This document shows positions 5,848 to 16,473 of a stretch of DNA of 64,000 nt, one piece after another. Below the pieces are notes generated by a model. That model was not told the DNA's origin. It did no database searches and saw only the letters and a program-made list of their open reading frames with translations. The stretch comes from Spartobacteria bacterium LR76 (GTDB lineage: Bacteria > Verrucomicrobiota > Verrucomicrobiia > Chthoniobacterales > Terrimicrobiaceae): assembly GCA_003054655.1 (NCBI GenBank), contig QAYZ01000011.1:1-64000 (forward strand). The letters run 5' to 3'. Every line of letters starts with the position of its first letter. Positions within the stretch are counted from its first letter, which is position 1. A program made the position numbers and the translations under genes.

Positions 5848-7395
5848 ATGCCTGCCCCGAGTATTGCGCGCTTCCGAGTCCTGTTGCTGGCTGTGCTGGC
5901 GGGGGTGGTGGCATTCCTTTTTTATGCGCGGTCGGTCGGGTCGGAGTTCGTCTACGACGCGCGCCCGCAGGTGCTCTTTGGCGATTATATTCATAATCCG
6001 TCGCACTGGGGCGAGGTGCTGACTTTTCGCGTGCTCGGGCAGGATGTGCTGGATGCGAATCGCCCCGTGCAGCTTGCCTCCCTCATGCTCGACTCCGCGC
6101 TGTGGGGGCGCAATCCCGTGGGCTATCACCTCACGAGCGCCGCTCTCCATGCCGCGAATGTCGCGCTGCTTTTCCTACTGCTCATGGAGCTGGGCGGCGG
6201 CCGGCCAGGACCGGCGCTCCTCGCCGCGCTGGCCTTTGCCGTGCATCCGATGCTGGTCGAGCCGGTGGCGGAGGTTTCGTCGCGCGAGGATGTGCTGACT
6301 TTGTTTTTCCTGCTCCTCGCCATGTTCCTCGCGCTGCGCTGCGGACGGAGCACGGGTCGTGCGATGTGGTGGACGGGGGCCGGATGCGTGGCCGCGTCGC
6401 TGCTGGCGGTGGGGGCAAAGGAGACGGGCGTCATTGCGCCGGTGCTGGTGGGGGCGTGCGGCGTGCTCTTCCGCGAGCGTGGCACAGGGCGGCGCTGGCT
6501 GGTGCTCACGGCGCTCGTGGCGGCGGTGGTCGGCGGGTTTTTGGCTGCGCGTTTCGCCTTGGAGCCGCGCGAGTCGGTGATCTTTCTGAGCAAGCCCGGC
6601 AGGCTGGGCGGTTCACTCGTGGAGACGCTGAAGATCCAGCCGCGCATCTGGGGCTTTTACGTGCGGCAGATCTTCTGGCCGGTGGAGCTCTCCGCCATCT
6701 ACACGCCGCAGAATGTCGCGCGCATCGCGGCTGTCTGGCTTTACCTCATGCTCGCCGCCCTCGTGCTCGTGCAGGGTGTCGCGGCCTGGCGGAGCCGGGT
6801 GGGGCTGCTCGGGATGCTGATGTATTGGGCCGCGATGGGGCCGGTCTCAAACCTCCTCACGATGTACTGCCCGGCGGCGGATCGCTATCTCTACGTGCCG
6901 CTGGCGGGACTCGCCATGACGGTCTTTGCCCTGCTCGCCATGGTGCGGCTCGGCGCGCGAGCGTGGCCGTTTGTAGCGGCGGGATGCATTGTTGTATTGA
7001 CTGCGCTTGCGTGGCTCGGCTGGCAGCGGCAGGAGGTCTTTGCCACGTCGCTGAATCTCTGGACCGACACCGTGGCGAAAAGCCCCGCCTCGGACAATGC
7101 CGCCAACAACCTCGGCTACGCCCTGGTGCGCAAGGGCGACAACGCCAAGGCCCTCGCCGCCTTTGAGCGCGCTCTCCAACTGACCAATGGACGGAAGGCC
7201 GACGCCTGGGCTGGAGCCGCCATCGCGCTAGATCGCACAGGCCGCCCGAGCGATGCCGTGCGCGCCCTGCGCCGCGCGGTGGAGATCATGCCGATCTACG
7301 GAGACCCCGATCAGCTCGTGAAGTCCATGGTTGCCGAACCCGCCGATGCCGAGGCTTGGCGCGAAATCCGCTCCCATGCCGTGATCGACCCGTGA
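5848..7395 (+). CDS. multi-pass membrane protein with C-terminal TPR repeats (TMTC/PMT-like)
   Basis: The 515-aa product has about ten hydrophobic segments over residues 1-410 and a soluble tail from about 425. The segments NRPVQLASLMLD, GYHLTSAALHAANV and AVHPMLVEPVAEVSSRED match the DUF1736/TMTC class of O-mannosyltransferase-like GT-C proteins, where an HPxxVEPVA-type loop is characteristic. The tail has at least one clear TPR (NNLGYALVRKGDNAKALAAFERAL) and a second partial repeat. It probably acts on lipid-linked sugars or on protein glycosylation at the inner membrane (inference). The ATG at 5848 leaves a short basic leader before the first helix. Confidence 0.8.
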   Translation: MPAPSIARFRVLLLAVLAGVVAFLFYARSVGSEFVYDARPQVLFGDYIHNPSHWGEVLTFRVLGQDVLDANRPVQLASLMLDSALWGRNPVGYHLTSAALHAANVALLFLLLMELGGGRPGPALLAALAFAVHPMLVEPVAEVSSREDVLTLFFLLLAMFLALRCGRSTGRAMWWTGAGCVAASLLAVGAKETGVIAPVLVGACGVLFRERGTGRRWLVLTALVAAVVGGFLAARFALEPRESVIFLSKPGRLGGSLVETLKIQPRIWGFYVRQIFWPVELSAIYTPQNVARIAAVWLYLMLAALVLVQGVAAWRSRVGLLGMLMYWAAMGPVSNLLTMYCPAADRYLYVPLAGLAMTVFALLAMVRLGARAWPFVAAGCIVVLTALAWLGWQRQEVFATSLNLWTDTVAKSPASDNAANNLGYALVRKGDNAKALAAFERALQLTNGRKADAWAGAAIALDRTGRPSDAVRALRRAVEIMPIYGDPDQLVKSMVAEPADAEAWREIRSHAVIDP

Positions 7396-12733: not shown

Positions 12734-12873
12734 GGTGTAGCGGGTGGTGATTGTAAGGGATTCTTTCTACCGGCGAAAGCTGATCTTGCTTCCGACTCAA
12801 CGATCTTTCCCGTTTCTTCAAGAGGTTCCTGAACGATTGCAACGGGCGACGGTGGAGGCATAGAGTCTGGTTT

Positions 12874-13266
12874 ATGGCTAGAGTTTGGCCGACATGTTTG
12901 GTTGTGGGAAAGGCGTTTTCGCCGGCTCGCATCGTTTGGACGGGATCGCCCATGGTACGTGATGTTAATGAGCCGGGAGATATCGGAACCAAAGGGCGCT
13001 ATGTTGGCGTTCCTCTCCCGTACGGGAGCTGCACGATCGAGGTTTCGCATGGGCCTGGGGAGTGGAGCCTGCTAGGGGATATGCTGACGGCCCTGGAAGG
13101 AAACATCGCAAAACTCCGCGAGGCGGGCGGCACGGACATCAGCCTGACCTGCAATGTCTTCCACGATGGCCAATGCAACTTTGAGTTCTCCAACGAAGAG
13201 CTGATTCGTCTTTCCAAGCTCGGCGTGGGTCTGGCCGTTTCGTGTTATTCCGAAGCCGAGGAATGA
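12874..13266 (+). CDS. DUF4279-like protein
   Basis: The 130-aa cytosolic product shows alternating strands and helices. The segment GEWSLLGDMLTALEGNIAKLREAGG followed by LTCNVFHDGQCNFEFSNEELIRLSKLGVGLAVSCY fits DUF4279, where a late LSxExLxxLaxLGxxLxixxY pattern is typical. DUF4279 proteins are often found among immunity or accessory genes; no activity is established that I can rely on. It is 28 bases upstream of the kinase-like gene and may share its transcript. Family call is moderate. Confidence 0.6.
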   Translation: MARVWPTCLVVGKAFSPARIVWTGSPMVRDVNEPGDIGTKGRYVGVPLPYGSCTIEVSHGPGEWSLLGDMLTALEGNIAKLREAGGTDISLTCNVFHDGQCNFEFSNEELIRLSKLGVGLAVSCYSEAEE

Positions 13267-13294
13267 CGCAAGGAACCTGCTTTGACTATTCCTC

Positions 13295-13738
13295 ATGAAT
13301 CTGGTGATCTTTATGGGTATCCAAGCCACTGGAAAATCCACCTTTTTCCAGCAGCGGTTCGCCGAGACGCATGTCCGCATCAATCTTGACATGCTCAAGA
13401 CGCGGCATCGGGAAAACCTGATTTTCTCGGCCTGCCTTGAGGCGAAGGCTTTGACGGTGGTTGATAATACCAACCTCACCCGGGAGTTTCGCGCACGGTA
13501 TCTCACGGCTGCGCGGGGCGCGGGATACTCTGTGCACGGATACTTTTTCCGGTCGCGCATCGAAGAGGCATTGGCAAGGAACGCACTGCGAGGAGAGGGG
13601 ACCCGTTTGCCGGATCTGGCCCTGCGAGGTGCTGCAGGCCAGCTTGAGCTGCCCTCGTACTCGGAGGGATTCGACGAATTATCTTACGTGAGCATGGTTG
13701 GCGATGGCACTTTTCTCGTGGAGGCCTGGAGGAAATGA
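13295..13738 (+). CDS. P-loop kinase of the polynucleotide-kinase (AAA_33) type
   Basis: The 147-aa product has the Walker A motif GIQATGKST at residues 8-16, and VVDNTNLT at residues 55-62, where D-N-T-N is the signature of T4 Pnkp-like kinases. An arginine-rich lid (RSRIEEALARNALR) lies near residues 86-99. There is no phosphatase or ligase domain, so it is a stand-alone kinase unit. Substrate is not proven; 5'-OH RNA or DNA ends are the best guess from the DNTN motif. Its stop overlaps the ATG of the Thg1-like gene (ATGA), which indicates translational coupling. Confidence 0.85.
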   Translation: MNLVIFMGIQATGKSTFFQQRFAETHVRINLDMLKTRHRENLIFSACLEAKALTVVDNTNLTREFRARYLTAARGAGYSVHGYFFRSRIEEALARNALRGEGTRLPDLALRGAAGQLELPSYSEGFDELSYVSMVGDGTFLVEAWRK

Positions 13739-14526
13739 AGTTTGATGATCTCGATAAGAAGCTGCGCGTCTTTGAGACGTCGCACGACTGCTATGTCTTG
13801 CCGGGCATCTACATGGTAGCCAGGCTGGATGGCCGAGGCTTTACCCGGCTAGCGAGGGAGGTGCATCATTTTGAAGCGCCATTCGATACGCGCTTTCGCG
13901 ACTGCATGATCTTCACGACTGAGCACCTCATGAACTGCGGTTTCCGTGTGATCTATGGGTATACACAGAGCGACGAGATTTCGCTCCTCCTGCATCGGGA
14001 GGAAGGGTTGTTTCGCCGCAAGTTGCGCAAGCTGGTCTCCGTACTGGCCGGAGAGGCGAGCGCGGCGTTTTCCTCCAGGCTTGGCAGTATTGCCTGCCTC
14101 GATTGTCGGATCAGTCAACTCCCATCACCGGAGACAGTCGTTGAGTATTTCCGCTGGCGGCAGGAAGACGCGATGCGAAATGCGTTGAATGCCTATTGTT
14201 ACTGGACGCTCCGAAAGGAGTCCTTTTCCATGGAGAAAGCGACCACTGCGCTGCTGGGACTAGGCATAGCAGAGAAAAACGAATTGCTCTCCCAGAGAGG
14301 GATCGATTTTAACGAAACGCCCCTCTGGCAGAGGAGGGGTGTAGGTGTTTACTGGGATACAGTCCGGATGGAAGGACAGAACCGCCAGACCGGACTGCCG
14401 ACTCAGTATTCCCGCAGACGATTGAAGGTCGATCTCGATCTGCCGATGGGGGAAGAGTATGAGACGCTGCTTGAGAAGATGACGGCTGAGGCAAGCAAGA
14501 GTTTATCGTTTCCGCGAAGATCCTGA
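13735..14526 (+). CDS. Thg1-like 3'-to-5' nucleotidyltransferase (tRNA-His guanylyltransferase family)
   Basis: The 263-aa product matches Thg1/TLP length. Metal-binding residues are present: D32 in ARLDGRGFTRL, and D80-E81 in GYTQSDEISLLL, equivalent to D29, D76 and E77 of the human enzyme. The helical region with NALNAYCYWTLRK and KNELLSQRGIDFNETPLWQRRG also fits the family. Bacterial Thg1-like proteins add nucleotides in the 3'-to-5' direction, often repairing 5'-truncated tRNAs. The overlap with the kinase-like gene suggests that 5' ends are phosphorylated and then extended. The substrate here is inference. Confidence 0.93.
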   Translation: MKFDDLDKKLRVFETSHDCYVLPGIYMVARLDGRGFTRLAREVHHFEAPFDTRFRDCMIFTTEHLMNCGFRVIYGYTQSDEISLLLHREEGLFRRKLRKLVSVLAGEASAAFSSRLGSIACLDCRISQLPSPETVVEYFRWRQEDAMRNALNAYCYWTLRKESFSMEKATTALLGLGIAEKNELLSQRGIDFNETPLWQRRGVGVYWDTVRMEGQNRQTGLPTQYSRRRLKVDLDLPMGEEYETLLEKMTAEASKSLSFPRRS

Positions 14527-14540
14527 TCTAGATTTACTGC

Positions 14541-14933
14541 TTACCAGAGCAAGACGTTCAGCCCCTCCACCTTTTGGAAATGAGCGTCAGCGGTGGCGAC
14601 GGGTAGGCCGCATTGCAGGGCGGAGGCGGCGATCCAGATGTCATTTTGGGGAATCGGGGTGCCGTTCCGAGCCAAGCGAGCGGCGATCTGCCCGTAGAGG
14701 CGGGAGGTTTCCTCGTCGGTTCCGAGGACGTCGGCGGCGATCAGGAAGCGCTCGATCAGCGCAATGTTATCCCCGGCGCGGCTTGACTTGTATGCTCCGT
14801 AATAGAGTTCGCCGAGAGCGGCTTGAGGAATGAAAAGCTCGTCGAATGCTGAGAGCTTTTCGGACAATGCAGAGGAGTCCCGAAAATGACGTACGATGAC
14901 GCTGCTATCCAGCAGGACGCTATTTCCAGTCAT
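14541..14933 (-). CDS. vapC: PIN-domain RNase toxin (VapC family)
   Basis: The 130-aa product starts at the ATG at 14933 (MTGNSVLLDSSVIVRHFR). The PIN-domain acidic residues appear in VLLDSSVIV, in the central LGELYYGAY helix, and in PQNDIWIAASALQCGL followed by VATADAHF. VapC toxins are Mg-dependent endoribonucleases that cut tRNA or rRNA. The start overlaps the end of the upstream small gene, as is usual for antitoxin-toxin pairs. It converges on the Thg1-like gene with 14 bases between stops. Confidence 0.9.
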   Translation of the reverse strand: MTGNSVLLDSSVIVRHFRDSSALSEKLSAFDELFIPQAALGELYYGAYKSSRAGDNIALIERFLIAADVLGTDEETSRLYGQIAARLARNGTPIPQNDIWIAASALQCGLPVATADAHFQKVEGLNVLLW

Positions 14934-15180
14934 CCGGTGCGATGCGATTGGCTTCTTCGCGGACGGAGGTTTCAAAAGCGCGGCCTTCTTCCTCCCCCAG
15001 GCAACCTGCCGTCGCCTTGATGGCTGCGAGGCGTTCTTCCCGGCGGCGGGGGTTGAGGCGGCTGACGTAACGCGCCACCTCGACCAGCTTGGGGGCTGGC
15101 AGGGCTTCGAGATCCCTGACGATGGATTCCAATACGCTCACGATGCGGGAAAGAGTACCATCGGTGCGGACGTTTGACAA
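14920..15180 (-). CDS. antitoxin partner of the PIN toxin
   Basis: An 86-aa charged helical protein with a TTG start at 15180. The middle PAPKLVEVARYVSRLNPRRREERLAA could form a helix-loop-helix, and the acidic C-terminus ends RIAPDDWK, like antitoxin tails that block a PIN active site. It overlaps vapC by 14 bases and precedes it, the usual order. The exact start is uncertain since no ATG is present in this frame. Confidence 0.7.
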   Translation of the reverse strand: MSNVRTDGTLSRIVSVLESIVRDLEALPAPKLVEVARYVSRLNPRRREERLAAIKATAGCLGEEEGRAFETSVREEANRIAPDDWK

Positions 15181-15216
15181 TGTCGGCGGGCCGCGGCTGT
15201 CGGGTGCGTTTTTGCC

Positions 15217-16098
15217 CTACTCCACTGCCGCCTTGGCGCGTGATTTCCCTGGCTCGGCGCTGACGGCGGCTTCGCGTTGGAGTTGGGCGCGGCGGTTTTG
15301 GACGAAGGTGTTGTTGTCGCCGAAGGCGGCCCAGGGGCCTTGCGGGACGTCGGTGAACTCGACGAATTTCCAGTCGGTCACGTCGGTGTCGTTCATGCCG
15401 AGGAAGTCGCGGACGGCGGGCGAGACGTCGAGGCCCGCGCCTTTGTTCAGGTTGGGCTTGGGGCGTTCGTTGCCAAAGACGTACTGCCAGTGGTCGGTGC
15501 GGAACGGGCCGGCGTCCTCCCACTGGGCGTAGCAGACGCGGTCCTTGAACCGGATGGCGATCCAGCGGCCTTTGCATACGGATTCCTTCGGCCCCTTGAA
15601 CTCCTCGCTGAACCACGGGATGACGCTGGAGGCCTCGGGCTTGAGGCCTTGCGTGGTGACGTCGTTGTAGGGGAGGGCGACGTAAAAGGGGTTCTGGCGC
15701 GGGGTGAAGGCGGCGGGGGTGTAGGAGGGGGTGCGGGCGGATTTTTTCGGCGTGTCGGTGCCGCCGTAGTTGCGGGCCCATTGCGGGTCCCAGCAGCTTT
15801 TGTGGTTGGGGACGGGGTTGTTTTCCGTGGGGCGTTCACCGACCCAGAAGGTGGTGGTGACGATGGAGTACCGCCAGGGGTACTGGCGGGCGGTGTTCCC
15901 GGCGGTCGAGCGGGGAAAGAGGCTGAATCCTGCGAATCCGCCGCCGTTGCCATTGCGCTCGGGGTCCTTGCCGTTGCGGGGCTTGGGCTTTACGTCGCCC
16001 GTGGTGACGGGCGTGGCGTGGAGTTGGTGACCGGCAAAGATGGAGGCGAGGGAGGACAATCCGACTCCCAGCCAGCGGAGGAGTGCGTTCCTTTTCAT
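15217..16098 (-). CDS. secreted protein, possibly double-psi beta-barrel (RlpA/expansin-like)
   Basis: From the ATG at 16098 the product is 293 aa with a signal peptide (MKRNALLRWLGVGLSSLASI, cleavage near HATP). The C-terminal half contains GRWIAIRFKDRVCYAQWEDAG and then GAGLDVSPAVRDFLGM, with DWKFVEF afterwards. D-x-GP and GLDxSPA-x-LG motifs are typical of double-psi beta-barrel proteins of the RlpA/expansin type that act on peptidoglycan or polysaccharide. The fold assignment is inference. Confidence 0.7.
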   Translation of the reverse strand: MKRNALLRWLGVGLSSLASIFAGHQLHATPVTTGDVKPKPRNGKDPERNGNGGGFAGFSLFPRSTAGNTARQYPWRYSIVTTTFWVGERPTENNPVPNHKSCWDPQWARNYGGTDTPKKSARTPSYTPAAFTPRQNPFYVALPYNDVTTQGLKPEASSVIPWFSEEFKGPKESVCKGRWIAIRFKDRVCYAQWEDAGPFRTDHWQYVFGNERPKPNLNKGAGLDVSPAVRDFLGMNDTDVTDWKFVEFTDVPQGPWAAFGDNNTFVQNRRAQLQREAAVSAEPGKSRAKAAVE

Positions 16099-16280
16099 GG
16101 CTCGTCTGCGGGCCGGGGGTATCCGTTCCGGGGACCGGCCACTCTTTAACGTCGGGCCGGTTTGCGGGATGCGCAAGGGGAGAGGGGAGTTTTCAGTGGT
16201 TCAGTTTTCAGTTTTCAGACTCCGCGCGGCGGGGACGGCGAGGTGAGTTCGTGGGCGCGGCCTCGGGGAACGGAAGGATT

Positions 16281-16382
16281 GAACAAAGAGGAAGCGAAGG
16301 GAACGAAGGGGAAGGCGGGAGGATTTTTACAGAGCCGAGCTTGCGAGACAGGCGGAGCCAACGTCGCTAAGATCGCAAAGGG
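16281..16382 (+). repeat. AAG-rich dispersed repeat, copy 1
   Basis: The core AGGAAGCGAAGGGAACGAAG, then a GGATTTTTACAGAG segment and a terminal CGCAAAGGG, match the copies at 34288-34363 and 34501-34577. About 35 unrelated bases interrupt it, including a GCGAGACAGGCGGA motif also seen at 8791. Confidence 0.7.
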
Positions 16383-16473
16383 TTGGGCGGTGGGTGTTTG
16401 CGGCGGGACGCTCTTGGGCGGGGGCGCGGCTTTATGGCGGAGGCGATAAGGCCGGGCGAGCTTCGTAAAAACG

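Follow-up and report, generated by a model that had tools for sequence, protein, structure and literature searches.

The kinase and Thg1-like genes and their genomic setting

The window, a stretch of 64,000 nucleotides at the start of a contig from Spartobacteria bacterium LR76, carries two overlapping genes on the forward strand, located within a segment that is missing from a genome of the same genus. The features of the locus are the following:

13295..13738, forward strand: predicted small P-loop polynucleotide 5'-kinase of 147 amino acids (Pfam, PDB sequence and fold matches)
13735..14526, forward strand: predicted Thg1-like 3'-5' RNA polymerase of 263 amino acids (Pfam, PDB sequence and fold matches)
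13735..13738, forward strand: ATGA stop/start overlap of the kinase and Thg1 genes (an overlap is also seen in 66 of 69 homologous pairs)
12734..15217, no strand assigned: accessory segment with the kinase-Thg1 pair and a PIN-domain gene (gap relative to a same-genus genome, and G+C)

The kinase contains a Walker A motif, GIQATGKST, at residues 8-16 and DNTN at residues 57-60, along with a likely general base (D32), lid residues R95 and R99, and EGFD at 124-127. The Thg1-like protein has the metal-binding residues D32, D80 and E81 and a DxR motif (D123/R125). An earlier, sequence-only reading of the locus had pointed to the GIQATGKST and DNTN motifs, the three Thg1 carboxylates and the ATGA overlap, all of which are present where it placed them, and both active sites are intact as judged from the sequence. 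Because of the ATGA overlap and the sequence GGAGGAA just 5' of the Thg1 start codon, inside the kinase gene, the two genes are predicted to be translationally coupled. Neither a MACRO-domain gene nor an RNA ligase gene was found among the flanking genes scanned at the window locus. The open reading frame upstream of the pair (12874-13266) has no family match, and it was rejected as a conserved third gene since no recurrent family of its kind occurs in the other loci. PADLOC gave no match, and nothing was found in a viral scan with a single protein.

In Pfam, the kinase matches AAA_33 (E 4e-12), and its best match among the PDB sequences is the kinase domain of mammalian PNKP (E 1e-9). Partial matches were obtained to the NCBIfam models for PNK-3'Pase and bacterial Pnkp; since the protein has no phosphatase or ligase part, it scores under the cut-offs set for full-length proteins. 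A Foldseek search with the AlphaFold model (pLDDT 95) placed PNKP chains first among the PDB folds (E 2e-12, 28-30% identity). Alignment of the model to PNKP with VIA-align gave a Z-score of 18.6 and an rmsd of 1.7 over 139 aligned residues, which is a tie with two fungal kinases with GDP (Z 18.5-18.9), followed by C. thermocellum PNK (17.8), PSTK (15.7), zeta toxin (14.2) and T4 PNK (13.9). The P-loop consensus GxxxxGK[ST] and an aspartate general base were both identified, with G8, K14 and D32 invariant or nearly so among homologues, and with D32 aligned to the aspartate of NRDTL in mammalian PNKP. The sequence-only reading had named DNTN as a motif of T4 Pnkp-like kinases; the protein is, however, more closely related to mammalian PNKP and to Clostridium thermocellum PNK than to T4 Pnkp. 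By its best sequence and structure matches, the protein is probably a polynucleotide kinase that adds a 5'-phosphate to broken RNA. Zeta toxin was rejected as a candidate, since the Zeta_toxin Pfam score of 11.9 bits is below the cut-off of 22.3 and the neighbor is Thg1 and not an epsilon/PezA antitoxin.

Thg1-like enzymes form the sole family of nucleic acid polymerases known to work in the reverse direction. The protein encoded in the window matches both PF04446 (E 5e-29, 101.4 bits with a cut-off of 29.2) and the Thg1C domain PF14413 (E 3e-12, 47.3 bits with a cut-off of 26.3). It is similar to the Methanosarcina Thg1-like protein (TLP) 5axk in sequence (E 1e-22), and this is also the best fold for its structural model (pLDDT 91, E 1e-18). 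D32, D80 and E81, which correspond to D30, D75 and E76 in BtTLP, are invariant in 54 homologues, as is the DxR pair. An Rfam tRNA search of the host genome identified a tRNA-His gene (G000:C11, L157) with G at -1, C73 and CCA, and the acceptor stem GTGGCCG/CGGTCAC. With G-1 encoded in the gene, Thg1 is unnecessary for tRNA-His maturation, and such a role would be redundant.

No Thg1 gene was found in the two same-genus genomes examined. In one of these (G002), the flanks are about 94% identical and positions 12734-15217 are absent, and the G+C of this segment is about 0.56 as compared to 0.61-0.67 around it. The absence from the same-genus genomes indicates that the pair is an accessory, laterally moving module, which was recently gained or variably lost in the host lineage. 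Short stretches at 16170-16400 in the window (query ~6375-6600) match dozens of sites in the same-genus genomes and represent a dispersed repeat.

The minus strand carries, at 14541-15180, a VapC-like gene with a PIN domain and a small partner gene upstream of it, which lie within the accessory segment or at its border. PIN nucleases normally leave 5'-phosphates, so that no kinase is required for such damage, and the idea that the pair mends the damage of the neighboring nuclease was rejected for this reason. The proximity of the PIN-domain gene to the pair is probably due to chance clustering in the accessory segment.

Searches of the host genome revealed no second kinase of the window family (kinase profile) and no RNA ligase of the Pfam RNA_ligase (PF09414) type, and the simplest reading is therefore that the kinase feeds Thg1. 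The host genome also encodes RtcB, beside a TROVE-like (Ro60/Rsr) protein that was assigned by eye. At this locus (L169:3766-7088, G000:C11), the RtcB gene is followed by the TROVE/Ro60-like gene. A tRNA-Gly gene is located upstream, a weak tRNA-like match comes just after RtcB (C11:238044-238107), and the arrangement resembles the RtcB-Rsr-Y RNA type of loci.

Conservation of the pairing and its exceptions

Thg1 was present in 11 of the 388 genomes sampled from the phylum, and one further locus was obtained from among relatives; the kinase is located directly upstream in all 12 of these loci. The kinase profile gave a strong match in about 17 of the 388 genomes, including all 11 that are Thg1-positive. 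Several of the phylum loci (L004, L006, L007, L009-L012) encode a distant Thg1 type and yet are kinase-positive.

A GTDB-wide scan identified at least 527 stretches that encode Thg1 relatives, of which the best 80 were analysed. A same-strand upstream kinase was found in 69 of these 80 loci, and in 68 cases it is no more than a few bases from Thg1. The selection of the best 80 is skewed to close homologues, such that distant Thg1 groups (many of them from Bacillus plasmids or phages) may differ. The genes overlap in 66 of the 69 pairs (by 11 nt in 55, 4 nt in six and 14 nt in five), and are separated by a gap in three. Judging from the record titles, the pair occurs in Planctomycetota, Verrucomicrobiota/Lentisphaerae, Bacteroidota, Cyanobacteria, Chloroflexi, Bacillota, Acidobacteria, Myxococcota, Gamma- and Alphaproteobacteria, Desulfobacterales and Fibrobacteres, in total more than 12 bacterial groups by title, although many records are metagenome bins for which the labels may be wrong. 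Plasmid records add Deinococcus and Embleya to this range. Kinase and Thg1 distances are correlated (Mantel r 0.76, 0 of 2000 permutations), which suggests that the two proteins mostly travel together, although common ancestry by itself also yields a positive r. In these sequence comparisons, the pairing is far beyond chance and the active-site residues of both proteins are near-invariant. Conserved adjacency, on which the sequence-only reading had made its proposal depend, is thus kept both within the phylum (12/12) and in the GTDB-wide set (69/80).

Within about 5 kb of Thg1, Hen1 was identified at 10 and RlaP-family nucleotidyltransferases at eight of the loci studied, the families being named from representatives. 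Since Hen1 and RlaP are RNA repair families, their presence supports a role of the pair in RNA repair. Two adjacent paralogous genes for RlaP-family nucleotidyltransferases are located beside the pair or a lone Thg1 gene at five loci (L016, L014, L023, L028, L068), and Hen1 is also present at some of these.

Exceptions were found in both directions. Among the best 80 of the at least 527 loci, 11 had no adjacent kinase, and nine of these genomes showed no small kinase anywhere, which suggests that Thg1 is able to work without it. In the other two genomes, the kinase is encoded elsewhere, close to a Pnkp; this arrangement is seen in the two Calothrix genomes with a lone Thg1 gene (G442, G441), in which the small kinase is near a Pnkp of about 880 amino acids (L170, L171). 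Conversely, at least six genomes of the phylum have the kinase without Thg1. In one of them (G172), in which no Thg1 was found, the small kinase gene is located directly downstream of RtcB (L109:1495-3351). RtcB joins 5'-OH ends, and a kinase is thus a paradoxical partner for it; the L109 kinase might block or reset RNA ends. Another Thg1-less kinase is located near an ADP-ribosylglycohydrolase (L114), and the remaining ones are found in other contexts. The presence of the kinase in genomes that lack Thg1, once beside RtcB, implies that it has other uses, and with exceptions both ways the kinase and Thg1 form a strong pair rather than an absolute unit.

At viral Thg1 loci, a kinase was seen in only four or five of about 79, and there was no adjacent kinase in the three jumbo-phage Thg1 genes checked. 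A phage origin of the pair was rejected on these grounds, and the rarity of the kinase at viral loci suggests that the pair belongs chiefly to bacteria. On one viral contig (L206) the order is reversed, with the Thg1 gene first and the kinase gene downstream.

A putative role in the repair of RNA 5' ends

We consider it likely that the two genes encode a translationally coupled, laterally moving pair for RNA 5'-end repair, in which a kinase step is followed by extension by Thg1. In the first step, for which we infer both the activity on RNA and the position in the sequence of events, the kinase would phosphorylate an RNA that has been damaged or truncated, at its 5'-OH. In the second, the Thg1-like protein would adenylylate the 5'-phosphate and then add nucleotides in the 3'-to-5' direction opposite a base-paired template. 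Adenylylation of the 5'-monophosphate is the first step of the eukaryotic Thg1 cycle as described in the literature, and bacterial Thg1-like proteins favor 5'-truncated tRNAs in vitro (PMC6471195, PMC3701042). By analogy with these characterised proteins, the substrate would most likely be a 5'-truncated tRNA, the acceptor stem of which is rebuilt. Damage to the acceptor stem would fit better than anticodon cleavage, since extension needs a template strand. The proposal of the sequence-only reading, that Thg1 receives its 5'-phosphate from the kinase, is as a prediction well supported by the conserved, overlapping adjacency, the intact active sites, the match to the polynucleotide-kinase fold and the encoded G-1.

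A broader role is possible, but we regard it as tentative and rather doubtful: the pair may be a mobile immunity module for ligase-free rebuilding of RNA 5' ends after ribonuclease damage by rival toxins or phages, which swaps freely with RtcB and Hen1-Pnkp-Rnl in repair islands. If true, its route would differ from both of these systems.

It has also been put forward that the pair readies ends for ligation, with the kinase providing the 5'-phosphate, Thg1 an adenylylated (App) end and a ligase the seal, and an RNA ligase is among the published neighborhoods (Anantharaman et al., 2010, PMC2904730). This would agree with the occurrence of Hen1 and RlaP genes close to the pair at roughly one locus in ten, some with a second kinase-like match just downstream, and with the recovery of the kinase together with Pnkp in the absence of an adjacent Thg1. 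However, the host genome has neither a PF09414 RNA ligase nor a kinase of the Hen1/Pnkp type, and 5'-phosphorylation would block the host RtcB, making preparation for ligation an unlikely function here.

Less probable still is that the kinase acts on a substrate other than RNA ends, as do zeta-toxin-like or PSTK-like kinases, and that a function in conflict, such as that of toxin and antidote, lies behind the adjacency. The P-loop kinase superfamily is shared, the fold also occurs in kinases that act on different substrates, such as PSTK (Z 15.7) and zeta toxin (Z 14.2), and a PIN-domain gene is located next door, but the best sequence and fold matches are to polynucleotide kinases, and the family recurs beside the RNA repair genes RtcB, Hen1/Pnkp and RlaP. 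Finally, it is highly improbable that the Thg1-like protein serves in tRNA-His G-1 addition with the kinase being incidental, a role that corresponds to the name and founding function of the family but was rejected as nearly refuted because the host gene already has G-1 and C73, while two same-genus relatives manage without Thg1 and homologous pairs keep the overlap of the two genes.

Comparison with known systems

The preferred reading, a kinase that supplies 5'-phosphates to Thg1, is not new. Anantharaman, Iyer and Aravind (2010, PMC2904730) described a conserved bacterial operon in which a polynucleotide kinase is the most persistent neighbor of bacterial Thg1, and proposed that Thg1 acts on a 5'-phosphate made by this kinase; the remark in the sequence-only reading that no system built this way had been described was thus mistaken. 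The window genes belong to the identical families, are adjacent in one operon, and show the same adjacency across distant bacteria, with the same proposed mechanism. Nothing essential differs: MACRO-domain or RNA ligase neighbors occur only in a subset of the published operons, and there is no such gene among the flanking genes scanned here. The pairing and its mechanism are hence already known as a published prediction, and the pairing itself is real, occurs widely and makes biological sense. A search of the open-access literature found no experiments on the pair. RNA repair systems that include such components are reportedly covered in a review by Burroughs and Aravind from 2016.

Added here are the scale and the overlap statistics (66/69), a host in which G-1 addition is redundant, the proximity to Hen1 and RlaP, and cases in which the kinase accompanies RtcB or Pnkp but not Thg1. 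With a kinase partner in most close homologues, the role of bacterial Thg1-like enzymes becomes testable, and the interest of the locus rests on an experimental test of the published prediction.

The individual proteins have characterised relatives. The kinase shares the fold, the Walker A motif and the conserved aspartate after the second strand with the kinase domains of PNKP and Clostridium thermocellum Pnkp, and the DNTN motif with PNKP, but is a stand-alone protein of 147 amino acids that lacks their phosphatase or ligase domains. The Thg1-like protein has the fold, the three catalytic carboxylates and the Thg1C domain in common with the TLPs of Bacillus thuringiensis (PDB 4kgk/4kgm) and Methanosarcina (5axk), but belongs to a kinase-linked bacterial group and is about 20-30% identical to them over the aligned fold. 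Neither Hen1 nor Pnkp was found beside the window pair. A 5'-kinase step in RNA repair is common to the pair and the Hen1-Pnkp-Rnl complex (PMC4411300), and Hen1 is located near the pair in some genomes; however, the complex works by ligation, whereas the window pair would act by 5' extension.
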